Positions 32,346-56,400 of a stretch of 64,000 bases of DNA are shown here, in pieces (the stretch's first letter is position 1; each line of letters opens with the position of its first letter). Both the position numbers and the translations under genes were made by a program. The stretch spans positions 1,364,001-1,428,000 of the forward strand of contig NC_044012.1 of NCBI RefSeq assembly GCF_900496995.4, given 5' to 3'. The stretch comes from Aquila chrysaetos chrysaetos. Its lineage: Eukaryota > Chordata > Aves > Accipitriformes > Accipitridae. The notes below the pieces were generated by a model that saw only the letters and a program-made list of their open reading frames with translations, made no database searches and had not been told where the DNA came from.

Positions 32346-41036
<8,691 letters not shown>

Positions 41037-42432: not shown

Positions 42433-45400
42433 CTAGTCATCCTCCTCCCCGCCGCCGTAGAGGTCTGCCAGCTTCTTGAAGCGGCTGCCCCAGTCGTTGA
42501 GGTAGTCGTAGTCCTGGTCGCGGTCGGAAGCAGAGGAGTTGAGGGAGCTGAGCGAGGTGGCCTCCGAGCCGCTGCCCTCGTAGTCGAACACCAGCAGGGA
42601 GTCGTAGGGGGGGGGCCGTGGGGTCCGTGTCGGCCGCTTTCAGGTTCTGGGGGGGTGGGGGGGGGCAGAGGGGTCAGCGCCCGTTCCCCCTGGTCTGGGG
42701 GGTGTCCCAAGGGTGCCGGCACGGGTAGGGGGGAATGGGGCTCACCTCCTCGATGAAGGTGCCAATGTCATCGGGGTTGGCAGGACGGGGCCGGTACTGG
42801 GGGGCCGGCAGGAGGGTGGGGGCCACGTCGTTGCGGAGCAGCACCTCGGGGCGGGCATCCAGGCCCCGGTGCAGCTGCCGCAGGTCGTAGTCCTGGGGAG
42901 CAGGGGGGACATGATGGAGAGGGGCAAGGTCAGGGTGCCTGCGCTGGCACCGGTGTCCCCCCCCCGGACCCTTGACAGACCCACCTGGTCCTCCTCCCCG
43001 CCGCCCTCCTCCCCGTAGTAAAAGACGTTGTCCCGTGTGTCATCCTCAGGCAGCAGCAGCGGCTCCTTCGTCACCTTCCTCCTCCTCACAAAGAGCAGCA
43101 GCAGCAGCAGGATGACTGGGGGGGGGGGCATTGGCATCAGCGGGGACATCCCCCCGGCCTCTGCCCCACGGGGATGGGGTGCAGCCCCACAGCACTGGGA
43201 CCCCCGGGACCCCCCACTCACGCAGCAAGGCCAGGAGAGCGCCCAGGGCGGCAAGGACGAAGGGCAGGCCGGTGGCGGGCTGGGATCTCTGGGGACAGCT
43301 CTGCGCCGGCCCCTCACAGTCGCAGACCCGCGCGGTGATGACGGTGAGCTGGGCTTTGCCGGGCCGGTCGAGGAGCCGCAGGTAGACGCTGTAGAGGTCC
43401 GGCTCCAGCGGTGCCACCAGCCGCAGGGTGACGGTGTCATCTGCACAAGACCGGTACCGTGGGTCACCCGTGGTGGCGCGCACCGGTAACGCCGCTGCGG
43501 CAGAGCCCGCCTCGCGCCGAGCATCGCCCCAAGCCTTACCTTCGCCGCCGACCTCCGCGGCCCAGCTGTCCCCCGAGCCGTGGCTGAGCTCGGCGCGGAA
43601 GGGGCCGGTGTTGGGGGGCAGGTCCCTGTCGGTGATGGTGAGGACCTGGGGCTGGGGGCTGCGGTTGCAGACGGTGATGTCCCGGGGCTCGGCTTCAGGG
43701 CCGTGGTCGTTCACGTCGAGCAGGGTGAGGAGCAGGCTGCCGGTGCCCGTGGCGGGCGGCGAGCCTGCGGGGAGGAGCCGTGCTGGAGGGGGGATCCCCA
43801 AAACCGGGACCCTCACGGGCACAGGGATGCCCCGAGCCGGGGCGGGGACGGGCAGCCCCCGGCACCGCTCCATGCCAGAGCCGGGATGTGGTTCCTGGTG
43901 ACGGCAGCACGTGTCCCTCACGTGGGACGGCGGGAACAAGGGCCCCTTTCATGGCCCTCACCATCGTCCACGGCCAGCAGCACGGCGGCGTAGGTGCTGT
44001 TCTTGACGAAGGGGGACTCGCGGTCCAGGTGGTCCCGTGCCGTCACGAGGCCGTTCTCGGGGTGCACGGCCAGCCAGCCTGCCGGGTCATGCCCCACCAG
44101 GTACCTGGGGGGCAGAGGGGACCTAGTGCCACGGCAGGGACCCCCCCCCGCAGACCCTGACCCCAACCCCAGCCCCGCTCACTTGATCCTCTGTCCCTGG
44201 GCCTTGTCGGGGTCCTGGGCCGTGCAGGAGGCGAGGGTCTGCCCCGGCGGCACGTCCTCTGGCACCCGGGCGAGCTGCACCGGTGGGTCGAAGACGGGCG
44301 CCTCGTTGACATCCTCCACGTTGACCGTCACCGTGGCGGTGGCCGTCGGCAGCTTCACGGCGAAGGGGGCCTCGTTGGCCACGGCCACGTGGAGCACGAA
44401 CTGCTTCTTGGCCTCGTAGTCCAGACCCTAGGAGAGGGGAGGGGACGGGCAGCACCCCACCGCGGTCAGCGAGGGGGGGGGGGGGCACGCGGAGGGGGAC
44501 GCGCACCTTGGCGGTGCGGAGGACGCCCTCGTTGCTGGCAGGGTCGGTGGCGATGGTGAAGGCACCTCCCTCGTTGCCGCGCAGGATGGAGTAGACGGCT
44601 CGCCACGCCGGCGTGCTCGGCTCATCCAGGTCGGTGACGGCCAGCCGGGCCACCTCCCGACCGGCCTCGTTCTCCGGCACGGCCGCCTCGTACTGCGGGT
44701 GCGGGGCCACCGTCAGTGCCGCAGCCCGGCGGGCACTGGCCTGCGGGGAGAGTGTCCTGCCGGGGGGGGGGGACGGACCCCACGTTACCGTTTTGGGGTC
44801 GAACTCGGGGGCGTTGTCATTGACATCCGCGATCTCAATCACCGCCAGCGCCGTCGTGGTCAGACCCTCGCCGTCCAGGTCGGCCGCCTGCACGGTCAGC
44901 GTGTACTCCCGCACGCGCTGCAGCGGACAGACAGACAGATGCGCACCCCGTCAGCCCCCCCCCCACCCCGGCCCGGGACCAGGGCTGCCCGCCCCGCGGT
45001 GCCGCAGAGCCCACCTCCCGGTCGAGGCCGCTGGCGATGACGCTGAGGGTGCCGGTGGCCCTGTTGACGGTGAACATGTGGGGATGGGGCTCCCGCGGCT
45101 CCTGGCTGAGGATGGAGTAGGCGATGACGCCGTTGTAGGTCTCCACCGCGTCGTCTGCGTCCGTGGCGGTCACCTGCATCACGGAGGTGCCTGGGGACGG
45201 GGACGTCCCGGTGAGTGGGGTGGGTGGAGGGGACGGGGTACCCACACGTCCTACGGGGATGGTCCCAGGGCTCTCCCCAAGGGAGGCAGAGCTTCCCCAC
45301 GGCACGGGGTCCTACCCGGCAAAGCGCCCTCCGGCACGGAGCCCCTGAACACCTCCTGCGTGAACTGGGGCTTGTTGTCGTTCTGGTCCGTCACCGTGAC

Positions 45401-48400
45401 TATGATCTCCATCGGCTCCTCCACCGGTTTGCCGTTCTCGGACACGGCGTGGGAGAAGAGCTGTGAGGTGGAGGGGGTGAGCCGGAGGGGGGGCTGGTAC
45501 GGCATGCCGGCACACCACGGCAACCCCCCCCGGCAGGGACCTACGTGATACTTGTCGATGCGCTCCCGGTCCAGCGGCTGCGTCACCTTCATCCAGCCCG
45601 ACTCCTTCTCGATGGTGAAGATGCCCTCGGGGGGGGCGTCCGCCCCCTGCCCCGTGATGCTGTAGAAGATCTTGGTGTCTCTGTCCCGGTTGGATTTGAT
45701 CTGGGAGGAGACATGGGGAGGGGGGGTCAGTACCCGCGCCCCCCCCCAGCGGCATCACACCCTGCCCCGATGCTGGGGGGATGGCCACTGCCAGCATCGC
45801 TCCCACCCTCAACGTGCCCAGCCATGTCCAGCCCCAGCCCCTCGCCCAGACGCGAGGGGGATGGACCCCTCCCCGGCACCCACACCTGCGCCCAACCCGA
45901 CTGACCCCCCCACCCCATACCTGAACCAGCTTTTTGGGGAAGGGACCCCTCTCATTTTCGGGAACCTTGATGGGGGGGATCACCCAGTCCCTCTTCCGTC
46001 TCCTGGGAGCAGCGTGAGCCCCGGGGAGCTCCTGCGGGATGGGGGGGCATGGTGAGGGTGCAGCTGGCGGGGGGGGGGGGTGAGGGACAGGGTTGGGGGG
46101 GCAGCTGGGCAGCGTTACCTGGGGGGAGCGCCTGCTCCGCACAGGAACCGGGGCAGGGTCTGACCGGCCGGCAGCATCCCGGGGGGGGACAGCGAGCACC
46201 CTGCCCACCCCCGGCAGCCATACGGGACCCCCATCCTCCTGCACCCCAACATCAGGCTCCTCGGTCCCGTCCGGCCCCGCGCAGCCTCCGGAGCTCGCTG
46301 CGAGAGGGTGGGGGGTGAGGGTGGCTGGGGGGGGGACCCGTCCCCCGGCCCCCCTGTCCCAGCAGCCCCCAGCCCCAGGACCCCGCACCCCCCCCCAGCC
46401 TCCTGAGGCAGATCAGGCAGGGGATGGCAGATTAGGCAGGGGATGCCGGGAGCGGCATGGGAGCGGCACAGGAGCGCGGCGGAGGTTTCGGCTTTGTTTC
46501 ATAGATGACGGGAAATTCCTGGGCAGGCAGAGCCCTGCCCCAGCCCCCCACCTGGTGTGTCACCCCCCTCAGGGCTCCCAGCCCCCCACGGCCAGGATAA
46601 GGGGCACAGCACGGCCCCCACCCCCCCACCCAGGACCACGCTGCATCCCCTGCGCTGGATACGGCCCAGGCCCCTGCACCCCCGGCCGGGAGGCAGGATT
46701 AGGGGATTAGCGGAGCTAAGCCAGCTCCGGAGGCTGAGCGGCCGTGAGAGCCAGGAGGGGACGGGGAGCGGGGCTGGGGGGGTTGCGGGAGCAGGGGGAC
46801 ACGTGGAACGGGGCAAGGAGAGCTGTGCCCCACGGCTGCCCCACACCAGGGTGGGAAGCGAGCCCTGGGGCAAGAGCCCCCGTGCCTGGAGGGGCAGTGC
46901 CGAGGGCCCCTCCCAGCCACGATGGCTGCGATAAGGGACATCTAAGGGACATCGGAGGGGCCTGAAGGGCCCCAGCCACCCTGGCAAGCAGGGCCAGGGT
47001 GCGAGGAGCACGGGGGAGCCCCCAGCACCCACCACGCGAGTCCCCAGCCCCGCTCCCCAGCTGTGGCATGCGTCGCTGCTCCCCACGGAAGGGCCGGGTG
47101 GCACACGGGGGTCCGGGTCCGCAGCCTCACTCCAGCCCCGGCTCGGAGAACCGAACCCCACCATGCCCTGGGGTCCCTCGGTGCAGAGCCCAGGCGGCAC
47201 CGTGCCCGCTCGGTGCAGCGGTGGAGCCGCACGGCCGGTGCCTGGGCCACGTGCTGCCCACGGAGGGGTTTCTCAGCGGCGTGGCCGGACCCCAGCCCCT
47301 GCCCGCGGCGGGAGCTCGGCAGAGCCCAGCTCCGCTCTTGGCAGCCCGGCAGGAGCCGGCCGGCCGGCTTGGCCGAAGGAAGCGGGATGCGGCGTCCGAG
47401 GCAGGCGGAGGTCGGGGCCTCTCCTGGCACGGCGAGAGCACTTACCGCCAAGGAGTGCTTTTAGTGCTCCACAGCCATTAGGCGAGCGCTGGCTCAGGCC
47501 ACGGTTCCCGAGCAGCCCCGCTCCCTGGGGATGCCGCCGAGCGAACAGGGCGGACGGGCCCAGGCAACACGCGCTGCCCCTGGGCACCGCCGGCACCGGG
47601 CCAAGAGCCAGCGGCGGCGAACCCCTGCCCGGCCTCGGGCCGGGCCGGCCGGACTCTGCAGCCCACGGCACCACGTTCCTGCCCACGGCCAGAGAAGGGT
47701 GGCCCTTGGGGCACCCAGCCCCATCGCCACCCTGGCGCCGGACACCCACCCTGCGGGGACCCAGCCCTGTCCCGGCGGCTCCCCGCGGGTGCCCCATGGC
47801 TGGACCAGAGGTGCCAGCGCCGGCATCAGCCGCCACCGGCCCCGGTGGGGCCAGACGGGGAGACCGGGCACCGCCAGCCCCACGGCCCGGGAGGGGGGGG
47901 CACTGCCCTATACCGCAGGAGCCCGGCCAGCCCCACAGCTCAGCCCCACACCCAGGAAAGGGCTCGCCCCATGGCCCAGCCCCACATCCCAGGGACCCCG
48001 GCCAGCCCCACACCCTAGGCAGGGCCAGCTCCCCCCGAAAAGCACCGACTCCCAGGGCGGCGGGGGGGGGGGGGGGGGCACAGCCGGCCCCACATCCCGC
48101 CCCAGGACCCAGCCCCACGGCTCGGGGAGCCCGGCCGGCCACAGAGCCAGCCCCACAAGCCGGGGGGGGGTCAGAGCGGGGCCGAGCACGGCAGCGCTGC
48201 CGCCCCCGGGGGCCCGGCCCGCCCGCCCCACCGGCGCCCCGGTCCCGGTCCCGATCCCCGGTCCCGGTCCCGATCCCGATCCCGTACGGCCGGTTCCCCC
48301 CGCCGCACATCCCGGGGGAGCTGTGGAGGGGGGGGGGTCCCGGGCGGAGCCGCGCCCCGACGGCGCCGGTTACCTGGTGCCGGGAGCGGCCCCCGACGCA

Positions 48401-48525
48401 GCCCCGGGGGGACGCACGGCCGGGCCGGGGGGGGCGGCGATCGCGGCGGCCGCCGGCAGGAACGGGAGGAGGAGGAGGAGGAGGCAGAAGAGGAGCGGGC
48501 AGAGCCCGGAGCGCGGCCCCCGCAT
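42433..48525 (-). CDS. CDH3: Classical cadherin CDH3-like (avian K-CAM/B-cadherin)
   Basis: Second type I cadherin, lying 5' of CDH1 in the same orientation as human CDH3. Exons (minus): 48374-48525, 46119-46297, 45921-46031, 45545-45700, 45316-45460, 45015-45190, 44789-44917, 44507-44692, 44183-44427, 43962-44104, 43540-43764, 43222-43440, 42985-43115, 42746-42892, 42433-42646. The mature protein starts after a RRRKR furin site with [20 protein letters not shown], has FSHAV in EC1, LDRE and DxND motifs, a membrane span, VRRRKV and a catenin-binding tail. Many stretches, such as [20 protein letters not shown], equal recalled chicken B-cadherin. The prodomain is short and carried on only two exons plus the start of the third; exon 1 (152 bp) does not phase with exon 2 unless one base of the C run near 48425-48434 is removed. 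The last exon has the same 9-base run (42607-42615) as CDH1. Gene symbol chosen by synteny. Confidence 0.9.
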
Positions 48526-49734
48526 GGCCCGTTCGCCGCCGCCGCCGCCGCCGCCGCCGTCGCTCCGGTCACCGCCCGCCCCGCCCCGCCCCGCCCCGCC
48601 CGCTGCAACGCGCCGGTCCAGGTGAGGCGGCGGCCGCGCAGGTACCGCCCCGCCCCGCCCCGGAGAGCGGCCCCCCCGTGTTCCCCCCCCCCCCCCCCCG
48701 CCCGGCACCCCTCGGTTCCTCCGTGCGGCCCCCCCGGTGCCTCCGTCCCCCCGCCGCCGTTCTCCCGGTGCCTCTGCGCGGTCCCGTAGGCACCTCCCGG
48801 GCATCCCGGTATTACCGGGCGCGATCCCGGTACCGCCGTGTGTCCCTCCATGTGTCTCCGGGCGCCCCCGGTACCTCCACGACACCTGCGAGAGCTGCGA
48901 CCCGCCGCCCCCGCGGCTCCCCCCGGCCCCGGTGCCGGCCCCATACCGGGGCTGAGCCCCTCCCGGTGCGACTTGTCCCCCTGCCCGGGGCTGGGCTGCG
49001 GCTCTTGGGGACCCCCGGAGACCCCCTCCTCTCTGCTGCCCGGGGACCCGGCACCCTGCGGCGGGGGCTCTCCCAGCACCCCCGGGCCCACCCTGCCGGG
49101 GGCGGGGGGTCGGGGTGCTCACCCCCGCCGGGGGGGTCTCATCTGGCACCAGCCACAGCGTTGCCCCCTCCCCAGCACCCTGCCGGTGCCGGGCATCGCC
49201 TGGGGGTTGCACCGTGCCGGGTTGTGGGGGCTCCGAGGGTCCAATGGAGGGGGCTCAGCTCCCCGGGGGTGGTCCTCGGCACCCCGCAACGCATCAGGCA
49301 TCCCCGGTGCTGTGCTCCCCCCTGCCCCCCATCAGGTGCTGCTGGTCGGGCATGCTGGGGGGCCTGGACCCCCCACCCCCACCTTTGGGTGCATGGGACC
49401 CCCAGAGAAAAGCAGGACCCCGAGGTGGGGCCATGTGTGTGCCCCTGGCCCCCGCTGGGGTGGGGTGTCCAGTGCCCTGGGGGGGTCCTGGGTTCCGCTG
49501 TGTCTCCCCCTGCCCCCCAGCCTGGAGCAGCATCTTGAGCCCTGGGGCCCCCGCTTGTGTCCCTCCCGGGCACCCCTCCAGGGCTGGCGGTGGCAGCTGG
49601 GCCCTCGCCTGCGCATGCTGGCACCCGTGGGCTGGCGCTTGGCTTTTTCCCGGCAGGACTCGGCCAAGGTCACAGCTGGCAGCAGGGAAGGTCCCGAGCT
49701 GGCGCCCAGAGGAGCAGCCGATGCAGCCGGAGCC
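48526..49734. promoter_or_regulatory. Head-to-head spacer between CDH3 and the inverted cadherin
   Basis: A 1.2-kb GC-rich stretch separates two oppositely directed cadherin starts. Near CDH3 it has repeated CCCCGCCC GC boxes (48580-48600 and 48645-48660) and a CAGGTG E-box at 48619-48624. The rest shows no exon. A shared promoter is possible but unproven. Confidence 0.4.
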
Positions 49735-50968
49735 ATGTCACCCTGCACCTTCGCCCTCCTCCTCCTCCTCCTGCCGGTAGGACCGTCCTGATGGGGCCAG
49801 GGGCCGCTGCACGTCTGTGGCGTGGGGGTGAGCGGGACAGTCCCCCCACAGCCCCTGGGCAGAGCTCTGCCCCCCCCCCCTGTTGAACCTCAGTCCCGCT
49901 CTCTGTCCCCGCAGGACGCAGCACCCGATGTGCTGACCTTCCCCGAGCCCGGCCATGGCCTCCGGCGGCAGAAGAGGGACTGGGTCATCCCCCCCATCAA
50001 CTGCCCCGAGAACGAGCGGGGGCCCTTCCCCAAGAAGCTGGTGCAGGTATGCGGCCCCGTGGGGACAGGGCACACGGCAGGGGGGGTCCCTGGAGCACCG
50101 GGACCCCTCTAACCCCCCCCTCCGCCTCGCCACCAGATCAAATCCAACAAGGACAAGGAGACCAAGGTTTTCTACGGCATCACGGGGCAGGGGGCGGACA
50201 CCCCCCCCCGTGGGTGTCTTCATCATTGAGCGGGAGACGGGGTGGCTGGAGGTGACGAAGCCGCTGGACCGGGAGAAGATCGACAAATACGTTGTGAGTG
50301 GGGGGGCGGGATGGGGAGGGGATGGTCCCTGGGGCCCACGCGTGGGCTGACTGTGCCCCTCTACAGCTCTTCTCCCACGCGGTGGCGGCCAACGGGCAGC
50401 CCGTGGAGGACCCCATGGAGATCATCATCACCGTGACGGACCAGAACGACAACCGGCCCGTCTTCACCAAGGCAGTTTTCCACGGCACCGTAGCAGAGGG
50501 GGCTGAGCCAGGTGAGACTGATGCCACCGATTAGGAGGCAGTGCTGGGGTGGCAGTGGGGGGGGGGACGGTGGAGATGTCACCGATAACTGCCCGCTCCC
50601 AGGCACCCCCGTGCTGCAAGTGCTGGCCACGGACGCGGACGACACGGTGAGCTCCAGCAACGGAGTCGTGGTCTACTCCATCCTGCACCAGACGCCGGAC
50701 CAGCCCCAGCCCCACATGTTTGCCATCAGTGGCAGCACCGGGGTGATCTCCGTGGCCGCGGCGGGGCTGGTGGCACAGGTGAGCCCCGAGCACGGCCCGT
50801 CAGCCCCACCGTCACCCCCCGCACCCCTCAGCCTGGCTCTCACCCCCCGTTCAGGGGTGACACAGCCTCTCGCCGCAGGCGGTCCCCGAATACACCCTGA
50901 AGATCCAGGCGGCCGACATGGAAGGCTACGGGCTGCAGGCCACCGCCACCGTCCTCATCAAAGTGCAG
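49735..50968 (+). pseudogene. Inverted 3'-truncated cadherin (third classical cadherin copy)
   Basis: Plus-strand exons: 49735-49776 (MSPCTFALLLLLLP), 49915-50046 (prodomain end, RRQKR then DWVIPP), 50137-50293 and 50367-50511 (EC1 with SHAV and DQNDN), 50603-50778 and 50879-50968 (EC2 up to TATVLIKVQ). Exon sizes 132, 145 and 176 equal normal cadherin exons. The copy then ends: no EC3-EC5, membrane span or tail follows. Exon 3 has one C too many in the run at 50201-50209 compared with CDH1; the same kind of surplus occurs in clearly functional genes here, so it may not be a real break. The normal LDRE at the EC1-EC2 border region is GLVAQ. Outside the CDH1-identical tract, the words GVVVYSI, STGVISV and VPEYTL resemble mammalian P-cadherin as recalled. 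It may be a transcribed short secreted product, a leader for URAH, or a pseudogene. Confidence 0.7.
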
Positions 50969-52291
50969 GTGAGGCGCCGAGCCCACCCCCGTGCCCCCAC
51001 GGCGGGCGGACGGGCAGGCTTAGGCCACGGCGAAGCCGCTGCCTGCTCCTGGCAGCCCCCACGTGCCGACACGCTCCGGGTGCTTTCCAGGGAGGGAGGC
51101 GAGGCCGGGGTGGCAGCTCCGCCGTGGCTCCTCCTGGCCCGGCGCCCCGACGTCCCGCCGGGCTCTGGTCCACCAACCCCAGGGCCACGGTGGTGCCGGA
51201 GCGTGGGTGCCGGCGGGGCTCCCGGGCGCACCTCCCAGTGGGAAGCCACCTGCGCCAGCTCGGCCCAGCCGGGGAGGAGCGCCCGGTCCTGCTGCGGCCC
51301 CGTGCCGGGATAGCGGCGTCCAGCCTCGCCAGCTCCGTGGGGAGAGGCTGCGGTGCCGGGAAGGGCAGCCGGGGCAGGGGATGGCATTTTGCACGGTGTC
51401 ACCGGCCGCGGGCCCCAGGCCGAGCGGGACAGAGGAGAGCCAGGTAAGCAGCCGGCCGCCCGTGCTCGCCCTTGCGCCTCTCCGGCGTCCCCGCTTCAGC
51501 CGGCAGCCGAGGCCCGGAACCGGTGCCGGGATGGCAGCGAGAGCCGGTCCCGCTCCAGGGAGACAGCCTGGCCCTGCCCAGCTGACAGCAGCCCCGGAGC
51601 AGCGGGATGCAACCCCCGGGTCTTGCTCCCACCCTGCCAAGCACAACCTGGGGGCTCCCGGAGGGGAAGGGGCCCTTGACCCCGCGCTTGCTGCCCGTCC
51701 CAGGCAGTTATAGAGCGCTTGCAGGGTTAACGTCCGCCCGCACGTGACATTGAAGGCGACAGGGACAGGGCTGCCGGGACTGAGCTGCTTCCTCCCTGGA
51801 CCCTGGCCAACCATTGCCGCCGTGCCACGGCCCACCGGGACGGGAGGGTGAGCGGGGAGCCCGGTGCTGCTGCAGGCACGCAGCCCTCCATCCAGGCAGG
51901 AACCTGGCAGGCGCCCACGCCGCCGGTGGCAGCGATGCCCGAGAGGCAGCGCTCCGCTGCGGGCAGGGCTCCGGCACCGCGGCCCCGGCGAAGCTGAGCC
52001 CCCACGGCATGGGAAGGACGTGGGTGCCCGTGTCCCAGCCCTGGGGCGCAGCAGGGTGCTGGGGAGAGGGGGGCTGTTGCTGGGACAGCCCCGGCTGCGT
52101 GGCTGCCAGCCCGGGGCGAGGGGGGGCTGCAGGGTGGTGGCACACAGGCAGCCTGGCCAAGGGCCCCTCCGGAGAGGGGCCGGGGGCACCCGGGGGCTCA
52201 GCTGCGGCACTGCCTGCCGCAGCACGGCAGAGGGGGGAGGCGGACGGTGCTGCCGGGACGCATCCCAGCCCCGCTTACTCCTCTGCCCCAG
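50969..52291 (+). other. Spacer or intron between cadherin copy and URAH
   Basis: GC-rich, 1.3 kb. It starts at a good donor (CAG/GTGAGG) and ends at a good acceptor (TACTCCTCTGCCCCAG). No further cadherin exon was found in it. It either is an intron of a chimeric gene or contains the unrecognised promoter and 5' UTR of URAH. Confidence 0.4.
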
Positions 52292-52300
52292 GCCGAAGGC

Positions 52301-53001
52301 ATGTCCGAGACGGTGAACGGCTCCCTGACCACCCACGTCCTGAACACGGTCACGGGGCTGCCGGCAGCCGGCCTCGTCATCCGCCTGGCCCAGCTGCAGG
52401 AACCGGGGCTGCAGTGGACGGAGCTGGTGCAGAGGTAGGAGAGCTGGTGGCAGCGAAACGGGCAGAGGATGCTGGTGCCTGTTCCCCAGGAGCCGGCCGG
52501 CTGAAGGCTCCCAGCACAGCCACCGGCTGCCGGCGGCAAGGCCGGTCCTCGTGGCTAGGGCCGGCCGGCGCGGCAAGGCTTGCTCCTTCCGATTTCAGGT
52601 GGACAGACGAGGATGGGCGCTGCCTGCCCCTCCTGGCTCGGGGGCAAGCGAAAGCCGGCACCTACAAGCTGCACTTTGAGACGGCGGCGTACTGGCAGGG
52701 CCAGGGGCACGCCAGCTTCTACCCCTTCGTGGAGGTACAGAACGCAAGGAGCAGGGGACTGGGGGGCACAGGAGCCGGCCACAGCCAAAGCTGCAGAGGG
52801 ACGAGCCCGCAGGGGTCCGGGTTGCCCCCCTGCGGCACTGCCAGCTCTGCTCTGAGCATCCCTCAGGGTCCGTCTCCAGCCAGCTGAGCCCCCCCCCTTG
52901 ATCTCCCCCAGGTTGTCTTCACCATCACTGACCCGGCCCAGAAGCTGCACATCCCGCTGCTGATCAGCCCCTACTCCTACACCACGTACCGGGGCAGTTA
53001 G
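52301..53001 (+). CDS. URAH: URAH, 5-hydroxyisourate hydrolase
   Basis: Hydrolyses 5-hydroxyisourate to OHCU, the step after urate oxidase in purine breakdown; transthyretin fold, homotetramer. Exons 52301-52434 (the exon itself opens at 52292), 52599-52734 and 52912-53001 join in frame. Family marks are all present: LTTHVLNT with its catalytic histidine near the N terminus, [39 protein letters not shown] and the C-terminal tetrapeptide YRGS. At about 119 residues the length equals the mouse enzyme. The ATG lies only 10 bases inside an acceptor-bounded exon, so a 5' exon upstream is expected. In human the locus (URAHP) is a pseudogene beside GAS8; here the coding sequence looks whole. It converges on GAS8. 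Confidence 0.92.
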
Positions 53002-53049
53002 GGGAAAGGCATGTCCTCCCCCCACGGACGCAACTACGCCACCGACACC

Positions 53050-53055
53050 ATTAAA
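53050..53055 (+). terminator. Candidate poly(A) signal of URAH
   Basis: ATTAAA 49 bases past the URAH stop codon. The GAS8 transcript from the other strand would end about 340 bases further on, so the two genes finish tail to tail. Confidence 0.55.
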
Positions 53056-53427
53056 GGCTTCAAACAGCACCGTTCGCCTCAAAAAAAATCACCTTCCTGG
53101 GGCAGTGCACACACGGCTTCTGGAGGGGGAAAGGAGGGGGGCCCCAGGGGCAGTGCAGGCAGGGGGGCCAGCCCAGGAGGCAGAGGGGCAAGGGAAGACC
53201 CCACACAGGCCCCCGCTCGAGCCCGGTGCGGCGGGTGGGATGCCGGGAGCCCTCCGGCTGTGCCGTGGTCCTGGGCTGCGCTGGCACTGCTCAGAGCCGA
53301 TCCGGTTGGCAGCTGCCCGTGGCTGGTGTAGCCCGTGGCAGGAGTGGGGGGCTGCTCCGGAGGAAAGGTCCCCCCGGGGAGGAGAGAAAGGGTCCTCCAG
53401 GTCCTGCAGAAGGCTCACTGGGGTCTG

Positions 53428-53433
53428 TTTAAT
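53428..53433 (-). terminator. Candidate poly(A) signal of GAS8
   Basis: ATTAAA on the minus strand, 52 bases past the GAS8 stop at 53485. Confidence 0.5.
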
Positions 53434-53484
53434 GGTGCGGAGCACCAACGCGTGCACCGGCGGGTCCCTCGGTGCTGGCTGGCG

Positions 53485-56400
53485 TCAGGTGGGTACGGCA
53501 ACGAGTCCCGCGGGGCCCTGCCCCAGCGCCTGCCCCAGCACCGGGCTCGCCAGGGGCTTGAAGCCCAGGTTGTCCAGGGGGATGCCGAAGGCCGTCAGCT
53601 TTGCCTCGAACGTCTGCAGCATATCATTGTGTGCCTGCAAGAGAAGTGCCCCATGGTCAGCCCGAAGCCCAGACCCTCCGCACGTGGGCACAGGCTCCCA
53701 GCACCCCCTTCCCCGAGGCGGGGGGACCCCAACATGCCTTCCTTCGCAGGGCAAACAGGGGAAACTGCAGCCTGGGCTGGGTCCTGCCTGGCCCCGGGCA
53801 CAAAGCAGCTCAGCTGCCCTGCTGCGAGTTCCCTTCCCTCCACTCTGTGCAAGGCCTGGAGCGGAAGGTCCCGTTCCCACTCCCCGCACAGCCACAGCCA
53901 CCACCCAACAGCCCCCAGCCCTGACCCGGGGGGTACGACAGGGCAGCCCCAGCCCCTTCCCTCACCTTGCAGACTCGGGCCAGCTGGAGCTGCAGGTCTT
54001 TGATGGTGGTGTTCTTGGAATTGAGCACATCCTGCAAAGAGAGACGGCGTGTCAGGCAACGGCTGCCCGGCCCCGGGGGCACGGCGGCCGTGACGCAGGC
54101 GAGAGCGGCGTGGCAGAGCGCACGGAAGAGCTGCTGCACGGCGGCCGAGCTGGCACCAGGGCCAGGCTCAAGCAGAGCGGCTCGCAGCACGGCCTGGCAG
54201 GCGGCCACCCCCCTGCTCTCTTCCAGCCAGCACTCCCAGGGACAGCCAGCCCCAGGCAGAGGCAAGGGACAGGGACCTCCCGGACTGATAACACGAACGC
54301 CAGCACAGTCCTGCCATCGTCGTCTGACCCGCTGCAAGGGTGGGGGGGGCCGACGGCAGCACCTGCTCCGGCAGCACCGCCCTGCCGTCGCGTCGCGGCA
54401 CCAGGGGAATTACAGGGAGAGAGGCTCCCTGAGAAGATGCTGGAGGCAGCTGAGCAGAGGAATTCCAGGACCCCAGCAGCTGTGGGAGAGCTTGACGCCG
54501 TGACGCCTTCCCAGGAATGTGTTTTCCTTCCTGCTGCTGTGGCACCTACTAGTAGGTGACACATCCGCTGCCCCGTCCTACGGCCCCAGAGCCTCGGCTG
54601 CTGCTGTGTGCATCCCCAGGGCACCCCAGCAAGAGGGTGTCCATGAGCTTCACCCCCACCCAGCGCAGAAGGGACCTGGAAGAGGACGGGCTGTGGTGTG
54701 GGATAAGCGGGAGGGCACCAGGGTGGTGGCCGAGCTGAGCGTGGAACCCAAGTCCCCTGCATCTCAACCCAACCTAAAGCAAGTGCTGCTTCTCCAGTTA
54801 CGGCTGCGGCAGGCTCCAGGAATGCGGCTCTCTGTGCCGAGGCTTTCTGCGTACTTATTTTTAGCGTGGCAGACCTTGCAGAGCCCCTGGGAACCTGTCT
54901 ACGCTGTCTCTGCAGACAGGGAGGCCAGACGAGGTTCACCGGCTGTGACTCCCCATGCACAGAGCACGCCGGGTTGCTGACGGACCCCGCACGCAGCCGG
55001 CTGCTCAGCAGCACAGAGCGCTGGTGAGAGCTGCTCAGCCTGGGGCCGTTCTCCTTGAAAGAGGCCCCACCTGAGGGAGACATCAGTGCCAAACTCTGAC
55101 ACCCACACGCTCCGCTCTCGAGGGAGAGCTGGAGTGCCCTGTGGCACCGAGTGTGGCCCTGGGAGTGCCAGGAATGAGTGACGTGGCAGCTACAGCCATG
55201 TAGGACAGGGAGTTGCACGCTCCAAGGTCTGCGTTCACCCCCGAGCAGCCTCTGCCCCCCAAGGCCAGCCTTCGCAGGGCCCCAAGTCAGCACACGGTAC
55301 CTCCAGCTTGTGCGAGACCAAGGAGAGGGCACCCGGGTCGAGGCTGGAGGCTGCGAAGACCTCGCTGAGCTCCACCTCCTTTTTCTCCAGAACGCTGAGG
55401 AGTCCTTTCAGCTTGCGCTCCAGGAGCAGGTTCTTGAACCCCGTCTTCTGCTGCACCTCGTTAATGGCTTTGGTGAACTTCTGATAGAGCTCATCCCGTT
55501 CCGCCTGCACCTGTTCCCAAAGACAGCATGCCTTCACACCACCCTCAGGACCCCCCGGGCTGGCAGCAAACAGGTCAGGCAGCTCGGCCCTGCCTGCTCC
55601 GGCGAGAGCCCGGCCGTTCCCCATGGCACCTGCAGCCCGCGGGGAAGGCAGGTGCTGGAGCGCAGCTTCTTGCCCTCCCTCCCTCCATGGCTGGCACCTC
55701 CTCAGCACCTGCACTTCTGCTTCCTCCTCCCCTCCGGGCCTGGGATGCCCCTGACAGCCGAACGGGTTGACGGGCTCGCTGCGGCACCATTTTAGACCTC
55801 GGAGAGGGCCCCACGGCACAGGGGGGGTCTTTCCTCTCCTCCTCACAGCTGGCAGGAGTCCCTGGCTCACAGCTAGTTAATAAGTGTCCTAATTAGGACA
55901 CAGTCTCTCCTCCGCAGCCTATTTCTGAATGCACTGAATATGTTGCTGCCGTAATGATGGATTGTTAACGAGGCCTCAGATCAATGTTCATATTCCTGGG
56001 GATTTCTACGAATTGCAAATGAGCTCTTTTCTTGCCTCAATAGATTTATCTGGGTTAGCTGGGGGGGGAGAAGCCGAGTCTGAGAGATCTCAGTCAACAG
56101 GACTCATCCCGAGCCACCCCGGCACGGCAAGTGGGGTGAGCGACCCCCAAATGCCGGCTACGGGTGGTGCCCCACAGCCATCTCTCCCCACGGCTCTGCC
56201 CCCAAGCCGCTGCTGCGGCCAGTCCCTCGCAGGCCGGGAGGGGACTGCTGGAGCGTGCATGATTGCTTAGCAAAGTACAAGGCCAGGCCTGTCTGCTGAC
56301 CGTGGGAGAGGCCAAAGCTGTGAGCAGCTTTGTTGGAAGCAGCAGATATCGCATGGCTGTGGATTAGAGCTTTGGAAAGCTCCTGGCTAAGCCCAGCCCA

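Follow-up and report, generated by a model that had tools for sequence, protein, structure and literature searches.

The window analysed here is a stretch of 64,000 nucleotides from the golden eagle, Aquila chrysaetos chrysaetos (contig NC_044012.1, positions 1,364,001 to 1,428,000, forward strand), whose plus strand carries cadherin exons, arranged head to head with CDH3, and then URAH, the 5-hydroxyisourate (HIU) hydrolase gene. CDH3 (start codon at 48525, end of the last coding exon near 42433) and CDH1 (start at 41036, end near 32346) are on the minus strand. An earlier sequence-only reading of the locus had proposed that an inverted cadherin fragment could splice in frame to URAH. The inversion relative to CDH3 and CDH1 was confirmed, whereas the term fragment did not hold, the exons being the 5' half of a gene that is fused in many vertebrates. 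We consider it probable that a single conserved fusion gene with two starts occupies the locus, one start giving a long cadherin-HIU hydrolase form and the other an enzyme-only short form.

The exon anatomy and phases were read directly from the plus strand. The end of the 5' untranslated region and the leader are in an exon at 49657-49776, with an ATG at 49735, a signal-like stretch (MSPCTFALLLLLLP) and a GTAGGA donor. The following exons encode a short propeptide, a furin-like RRQKR site and the start of the first extracellular cadherin domain (EC1; DWVIPP, including Trp2) at 49915-50046, more of EC1 at 50137-50293, where a run of nine C residues (C9) at 50201 causes a one-base frame break as assembled, the end of EC1 (HAV, DQNDN) and the start of EC2 at 50367-50511, and EC2 at 50603-50778, where LVAQ takes the place of the LDRE of CDH1 and CDH3. 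The last cadherin exon (50879-50968) ends in phase 0 on GTG CAG before a GTGAGG donor, as the sequence-only reading had stated, and its unspliced frame runs to a stop at 51311-51313. The homologous exon of CDH1 and CDH3 codes on through the calcium-binding DxNDN linker at the point where the fusion gene has CAG followed by GTGAGG. Cadherin homology stops inside the EC2 exon, and the gene lacks EC3-EC5, a strong membrane segment and a catenin-binding tail. The first HIU hydrolase exon (52292-52434, with a catalytic His) opens with GCC GAA GGC ATG after CTTACTCCTCTGCCCCAG, which bears out the strong acceptor and the common frame claimed earlier; it is followed by exons at 52599-52734 (DGRC, catalytic Arg) and 52912-53001 (with the stop codon), and the complete HIU hydrolase read from 52292 has 122 residues. 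The leader (49735-49776), five cadherin exons and three HIU hydrolase exons together make a reading of 369 residues in nine coding exons, and all the parts listed by the sequence-only reading, namely a leader, the end of a prodomain, EC1, most of EC2 and a whole HIU hydrolase, are present.

The join from 50968 to 52292 is phase 0 to phase 0, an agreement that chance alone would give one time in three; the claim of a cadherin-URAH join is strong because of database relatives, not because of this agreement alone. Between 50869 and 52291 there are two donors of the form MAGGTRAG (50968 and 51443) against 0.08 expected from 500 first-order Markov simulations, and these are the two implied by the gene models of other birds. 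The ATTAAA at 53050-53055 is the sole polyadenylation signal (AATAAA, ATTAAA or AGTAAA) located on the plus strand from 46001 to 54500, and none separates the cadherin half from URAH.

Among the best 120 of 568 database matches to URAH alone, two (Manacus and Empidonax) also carry a Pfam cadherin domain. The joined reading was scored only against the 7,996 candidates sharing most words with it; the top match among the best 120 of 257 was a 'cadherin-1-like' protein of Morphnus guianensis (P0121; 409 residues, 96% identity, 100% query coverage), which contains the predicted junction peptide and has a leader reading MSLCTFALLLLLLP. A search with the coelacanth relative (best 120 of 2,180 matches) added proteins of axolotl, Rana, sturgeon, ducks, hoatzin and wolverine. 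Altogether, 87 of the 307 returned proteins match both the cadherin part and the HIU hydrolase of the window: 38 from birds, 9 from turtles, 22 from lizards and snakes, 4 from mammals (echidna, fox, meerkat and wolverine), 11 from amphibians and 3 from fishes (two coelacanths and one sturgeon), several being isoforms of one species and six not covering all three catalytic columns. The in-frame splice is supported by the same join in gene models of other animals, such as P0121. The exact junction after VQ occurs in 27 of the 38 bird proteins and in 5 of the 9 turtle proteins; in snakes, echidna, frogs and newt the join lies close to this site, as judged by eye. P0255 is a 464-residue fusion with a prodomain, like the Rana proteins, and is uninterrupted in a contig of 1,567 bases. 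Because the bird gene has nine coding exons, this uninterrupted contig is presumably cDNA and thus evidence of an amphibian transcript. We hold it highly probable that vertebrates have a real fusion gene of this type.

The enzyme half is complete in the eagle. Two window exons scored above the curated cut-off of PF00576, the Morphnus fusion reached 121.4 bits against a cut-off of 25.3, and alignment with solved relatives placed the catalytic His, Arg and His and the C-terminal YRGS in the window enzyme. HIU hydrolase is a homotetramer that hydrolyses HIU by means of this His/Arg/His set and ends in YRGS. A PF00576 profile search of the genome gave matches at the fusion locus only; since it worked exon by exon and left the transthyretin gene likewise unreported, it does not prove that URAH is single-copy. 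The EC2 sequence showed no close second copy, the next matches being at 57% (CDH3) and then at 49% or less.

The coding part of a predicted alternative first exon for the enzyme-only isoform lies at 51381-51443 (plus strand), encodes MAFCTVSPAAGPRPSGTEESQ and ends in phase 0 on CAG followed by GTAAGC. Stretches related to MAFCTVSPAAGPRPSGTEESQ were found in P0001, P0041, P0047, P0065, P0088, P0160 and P0151, and in Accipiter (MAFCMVSPAAGPRLSRTEETQ), Pezoporus, Strix, Mergus and Melopsittacus the first 21 residues of the enzyme-only isoforms are related to it; the models of other birds, e.g. Gallus, Parus and Rissa, start differently. Since the window encodes this exon and the exon has relatives in birds, the fusion and a separate URAH start would coexist, and we have little doubt that the enzyme-only short form is real. 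The alternative raised by the sequence-only reading, a URAH with its own upstream exon, thus holds as well: such an exon exists beside the fusion, but it is coding and not untranslated. A non-coding URAH exon placed by eye near 51738-51849 was dropped once the coding exon at 51381-51443 was found to have bird relatives. A pattern scan of 46000-52600 (plus strand) for a URAH start with a peroxisomal targeting signal of type 2 (PTS2) turned up two PTS2-like stretches, but no ATG precedes either of them in frame. As a side observation, the URAH isoform P0066 of Coturnix japonica starts like the end of the CDH1 ectodomain, a further sign of exchange or merging between neighbours.

Trp2, the furin site, the HAV motif and the calcium motifs of EC1-EC2 have established roles in classical (type I) cadherins. 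Among the 87 fusions, a start methionine with a hydrophobic leader stretch was present in 64, a basic cleavage motif before EC1 in 77, Trp2 in 71 and HAV in 66. A GL[VAS][AP][QEK] form at the end of EC2, where the window has LVAQ for LDRE, was present in 30; only a following third EC domain would call for LDRE and the DxNDN linker. In a hydropathy scan, 82 of the 87 had nothing like a membrane segment after residue 80, and the weak stretches in the remaining five (1.68-2.11) were read by eye as EC strands, whereas four CDH controls reached 3.3.

Based on these features, we propose that the two forms arise as described below. The long form would come from a transcript that starts near the promoter head to head with CDH3 and in which splicing joins the exons of the leader, furin-like site, EC1 and EC2 to the three exons for HIU hydrolase. 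This 369-residue product, having no membrane anchor, would be secreted and cut by furin, which would free Trp2. The transthyretin-fold tail would then tetramerise and so display several EC1-EC2 arms, each of which could attach to E-cadherin. The short form would use the internal start in the exon at 51381-51443 and would be a 143-residue HIU hydrolase with no signal peptide. We infer transcription in the eagle, secretion, the tetramer and E-cadherin binding, and the secreted, E-cadherin-binding role is put forward tentatively, with slightly less confidence than an even chance would give.

Several observations weigh against a conserved fusion gene with such a product, and those that bear on a particular alternative are given with it in the paragraphs that follow. 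Most of the fused relatives are automatic gene models. The exact junction, by the pattern used, is absent from all 22 squamate, all 4 mammal, all 11 amphibian, all 3 fish and 11 of the 38 bird proteins. The source label of P0255, 'lgn', is unexplained, and a processed retrocopy would also be uninterrupted. The models of ducks, goose, hoatzin, carnivores, two snakes and sea turtles contain more EC domains, which may reflect merged annotation. Separately, we note that such extra-EC models in hoatzin, ducks and goose, carnivores and two snakes (P0247, P0250, P0252, P0259, P0165, P0179, P0251, P0245 and P0246) would result from either secondary rearrangement or merging.

The alternative that survives best is that the tail serves as a multimerising scaffold only, the long form having no enzymatic role. 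One or more catalytic residues are lost in six of the eight turtle proteins with all three columns (Dermochelys, Carettochelys, Chrysemys, two Lepidochelys and Chelonia), in one snake (Thamnophis) and in the sturgeon, all of which keep the domain. On the other hand, His/Arg/His is intact in 73 of the 87 fusions, although such conservation cannot discriminate here because the short form is encoded by these exons too. We regard the scaffold-only tail as a serious contender that falls a little short of being favoured. In the sturgeon, Acipenser ruthenus (P0261), the HIU hydrolase-fold domain is kept while all three catalytic residues are changed.

The history of the cadherin half bears on a second alternative, in which several lineages independently placed a duplicated cadherin 5' half before URAH, CDH1 and CDH3 being its neighbours. 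An inverted tract at 49903-50480 (plus strand) is 97.6% identical, introns included, to CDH1 at 36485-35913 (minus strand) and is probably the product of recent gene conversion. At the protein level, the identity between the eagle's fusion and its CDH1 is 100% for EC1 and 51% for EC2, against 77.1% and 55.0% in the control pair of CDH3 and CDH1. Seventeen bird fusions, chosen without galliforms, ducks and hoatzin, showed 83.5-96.3% identity in EC1 and 47-63% in EC2 to the nearest of five bird CDH1 proteins; in some of them, e.g. two manakins, EC1 is nearer to another fusion than to any of the five. The EC2 domains of eagle and Morphnus are 96% identical. FTK is found in eagle CDH1, Accipiter CDH1 and the eagle fusion, and FTE in the fusions of Morphnus, Pluvialis and Balearica, a pattern that hints at conversion from CDH1 to the fusion; FTK is, however, present in cuckoo fusions too. 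Assembly polishing with paralogous reads could mimic part of the CDH1-like tract. In EC2, the changes unique to the fusion gene among the three window paralogues compared fall at 19 of 69 first, 12 of 73 second and 20 of 54 third codon positions, which is suggestive, although weakly, of constraint and not of a neutral relic.

Trees were built from a selection of 48 proteins, comprising 33 of the 87 fusions together with 15 cadherins, and two window sequences. In the EC1 tree, fusions and CDH1 were intermingled, in a poorly resolved topology in which the bootstrap had not settled and long branches met. In the EC2 tree, all 12 neoavian fusions formed one clade (100/100) apart from CDH1, and coelacanth and sturgeon grouped together (99/93). 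The cadherin half also grouped in part with the CDH1 of its own lineage, as repeated fusions would give: in EC2, the fusions of galliforms and ducks were placed beside bird CDH1, those of carnivores beside mammal CDH1 and that of a gecko beside gecko CDH1, while the axolotl fusion fell with CDH3. The fusion label needs seven changes in this tree, at least six of them forced by well-supported branches, and only birds and turtles have the exact junction. These results would fit recurrent fusion, which is opposed by the neoavian clade, by the coelacanth-sturgeon group, by the joins near the same place in several other lineages (by eye) and by the near-identical CDH1 tract in the window; we consider it unlikely, although arguable. 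The opposite account, which we hold to be just as doubtful, is that a single fusion predates the divergence of lobe-finned from ray-finned fishes, that a secreted multivalent E-cadherin ligand has been kept since, and that repeated conversion holds EC1 near the local E-cadherin so that recognition persists. The enzyme would have been recruited as an oligomerising scaffold, and its catalytic residues would later have been lost in most of the turtles examined and in the sturgeon, with the protein persisting.

The golden-eagle copy itself might be a pseudogene, the fusion being real elsewhere and lost here through the extra C at 50201. The EC1 exon at 50137-50293 has C9 where the otherwise near-identical CDH1 tract has C8, so that the EC1 frame is broken as assembled, a point missed by the sequence-only reading, and the golden-eagle model P0211 skips this exon. 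However, a one-C excess is also present in the last coding exons of CDH3 (42433-42648) and CDH1 (32346-32561; both minus strand), which have C9 (runs at 42615 and 32528) where the conserved frame needs C8, and again in CDH1 near 32775 (minus strand), where it breaks the frame as judged against P0305. The two last exons are identical in 216 of 216 bases, so that they are not independent cases. The Aquila CDH1 model leaves out residues both at the C run in the CDH1 tail and near 32775; among the aligned pieces of this protein (P0297) with more than 85% identity, 11 of the 12 listed on the CDH1 gene match at 96-100%. Since the excess recurs at these places, the extra C at 50201 is likely an assembly error, and the assembly seems to overcall C runs. 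The other exons of the fusion are open, and a pseudogene in the golden eagle appears improbable. The identity of the last exons of CDH3 and CDH1 is an observation in its own right: it suggests that gene conversion has acted on the catenin-binding tail, unless it is an assembly artefact.

A further alternative is a cadherin-only product, made alone or beside the fusion by reading through 50968 to the stop at 51311-51313 or beyond, which would be secreted and carry an unrelated tail after EC1-EC2. The golden-eagle UniRef model P0211 is of this kind: it is unfused, omits the frame-broken exon, reads past 50968 to the stop and matches 50867-51310 at 148 of 148 residues. Isoform 1 of Morphnus (P0151) likewise ends at the equivalent of 51710 with no enzyme. 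Because P0211 reads on to a stop instead of joining URAH, the 50968-52292 join is one that we infer for the golden eagle itself. The other Morphnus isoform (P0121), however, is fused, the donor at 50968 is strong and no polyadenylation signal was found before 53050, and we consider a cadherin-only product about as improbable as the loss just discussed, or slightly more so. Least probable of all is that annotation merged a dead cadherin duplicate with a downstream URAH from whose own first exon the cell makes only HIU hydrolase: enzyme-only isoforms are common among the models, the assembled sequence breaks the frame in the eagle EC1 exon and some models (P0257, P0160 and P0211) are plainly odd, but the exact junction recurs in birds and turtles, the EC2 frame is open with intact splice sites and near-identical between eagle and Morphnus, a frog-like fusion lies within a single short contig (P0255) and the two halves have no polyadenylation signal found between them.

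The two parts of the fusion resemble known proteins to different extents. The URAH part (PF00576) has the whole domain, the catalytic His/Arg/His and the YRGS end and is homologous to the zebrafish enzyme 2h1x; it differs in that the long form adds a signal-like leader and two cadherin domains and the short form has no PTS2-like start. With EC1-EC2 of E-cadherin (CDH1), the fusion shares the furin-like site, Trp2, HAV and the PENE, LDRE, DQNDN and DADD motifs, the eagle EC1 being identical, and among solved structures Cadherin-1 chains match the Morphnus fusion best. Unlike E-cadherin, it lacks EC3-EC5, the membrane segment and the catenin-binding tail; its EC2 is diverged, without LDRE and DxNDN, and the bird fusions have no full prodomain. 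Soluble E-cadherin is shed as an ectodomain released from CDH1 by proteolysis; the fusion would resemble it as a soluble E-cadherin-like ectodomain and differ in having its own gene and an oligomerising tail. In plants, a transthyretin-like protein is a fusion of 2-oxo-4-hydroxy-4-carboxy-5-ureidoimidazoline (OHCU) decarboxylase and HIU hydrolase, according to parts of PMC2834698. There too HIU hydrolase is the C-terminal part, but the partner is an enzyme of the same pathway, whereas here it is an adhesion domain.

In line with the remark of the sequence-only reading that such a chimera had not been seen described, no description of a cadherin-HIU hydrolase fusion was found in open-access PMC papers, subscription literature lying outside this scope. 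The protein is in public databases under names such as 'cadherin-1-like' and '5-hydroxyisourate hydrolase' and yet appears to be undescribed. It joins two well-studied vertebrate protein families in one gene. If the proposal is true, it would be a natural soluble, oligomeric ligand of E-cadherin. The gene also offers an example of sequence exchange that affects EC1 but, in neoavian birds, leaves the adjacent EC2 aside. Passages of PMC10517255 report high Urah expression in the liver of sauropsids without liver uricase transcripts. Uricase transcripts are absent from the liver of birds (PMC10517255), and a second protein from the same exons may help to explain why birds nevertheless retain URAH.

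Next to URAH, the minus strand at 53500-54030 holds the 3' end of what is, to judge by its C-terminus, probably a GAS8/DRC4-like gene. The gene order on chicken chromosome 11 is given as DBNDD1, URAH, CDH3 and CDH1 in a part of PMC6339939, and a section of PMC7667380 lists a chromosome 11 region near URAH and CDH1. For one fish, an excerpt of PMC6660938 gives a duplicated Urah and a partly duplicated Cdh1 as separate items. Upstream of the leader exon, the 3' end of a probable non-coding first exon lies at 48600-48621 (plus strand), antisense to the 5' region of CDH3, with CAG followed by a GTGAGG donor; this donor is one of five MAGGTRAG sites on the plus strand between 48500 and 54500, and the N-termini of the models P0121, P0122 and P0257 would point to an exon here. 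That this probable first exon lies, in the region 48525-48621, antisense to the start of CDH3 suggests a shared bidirectional promoter.

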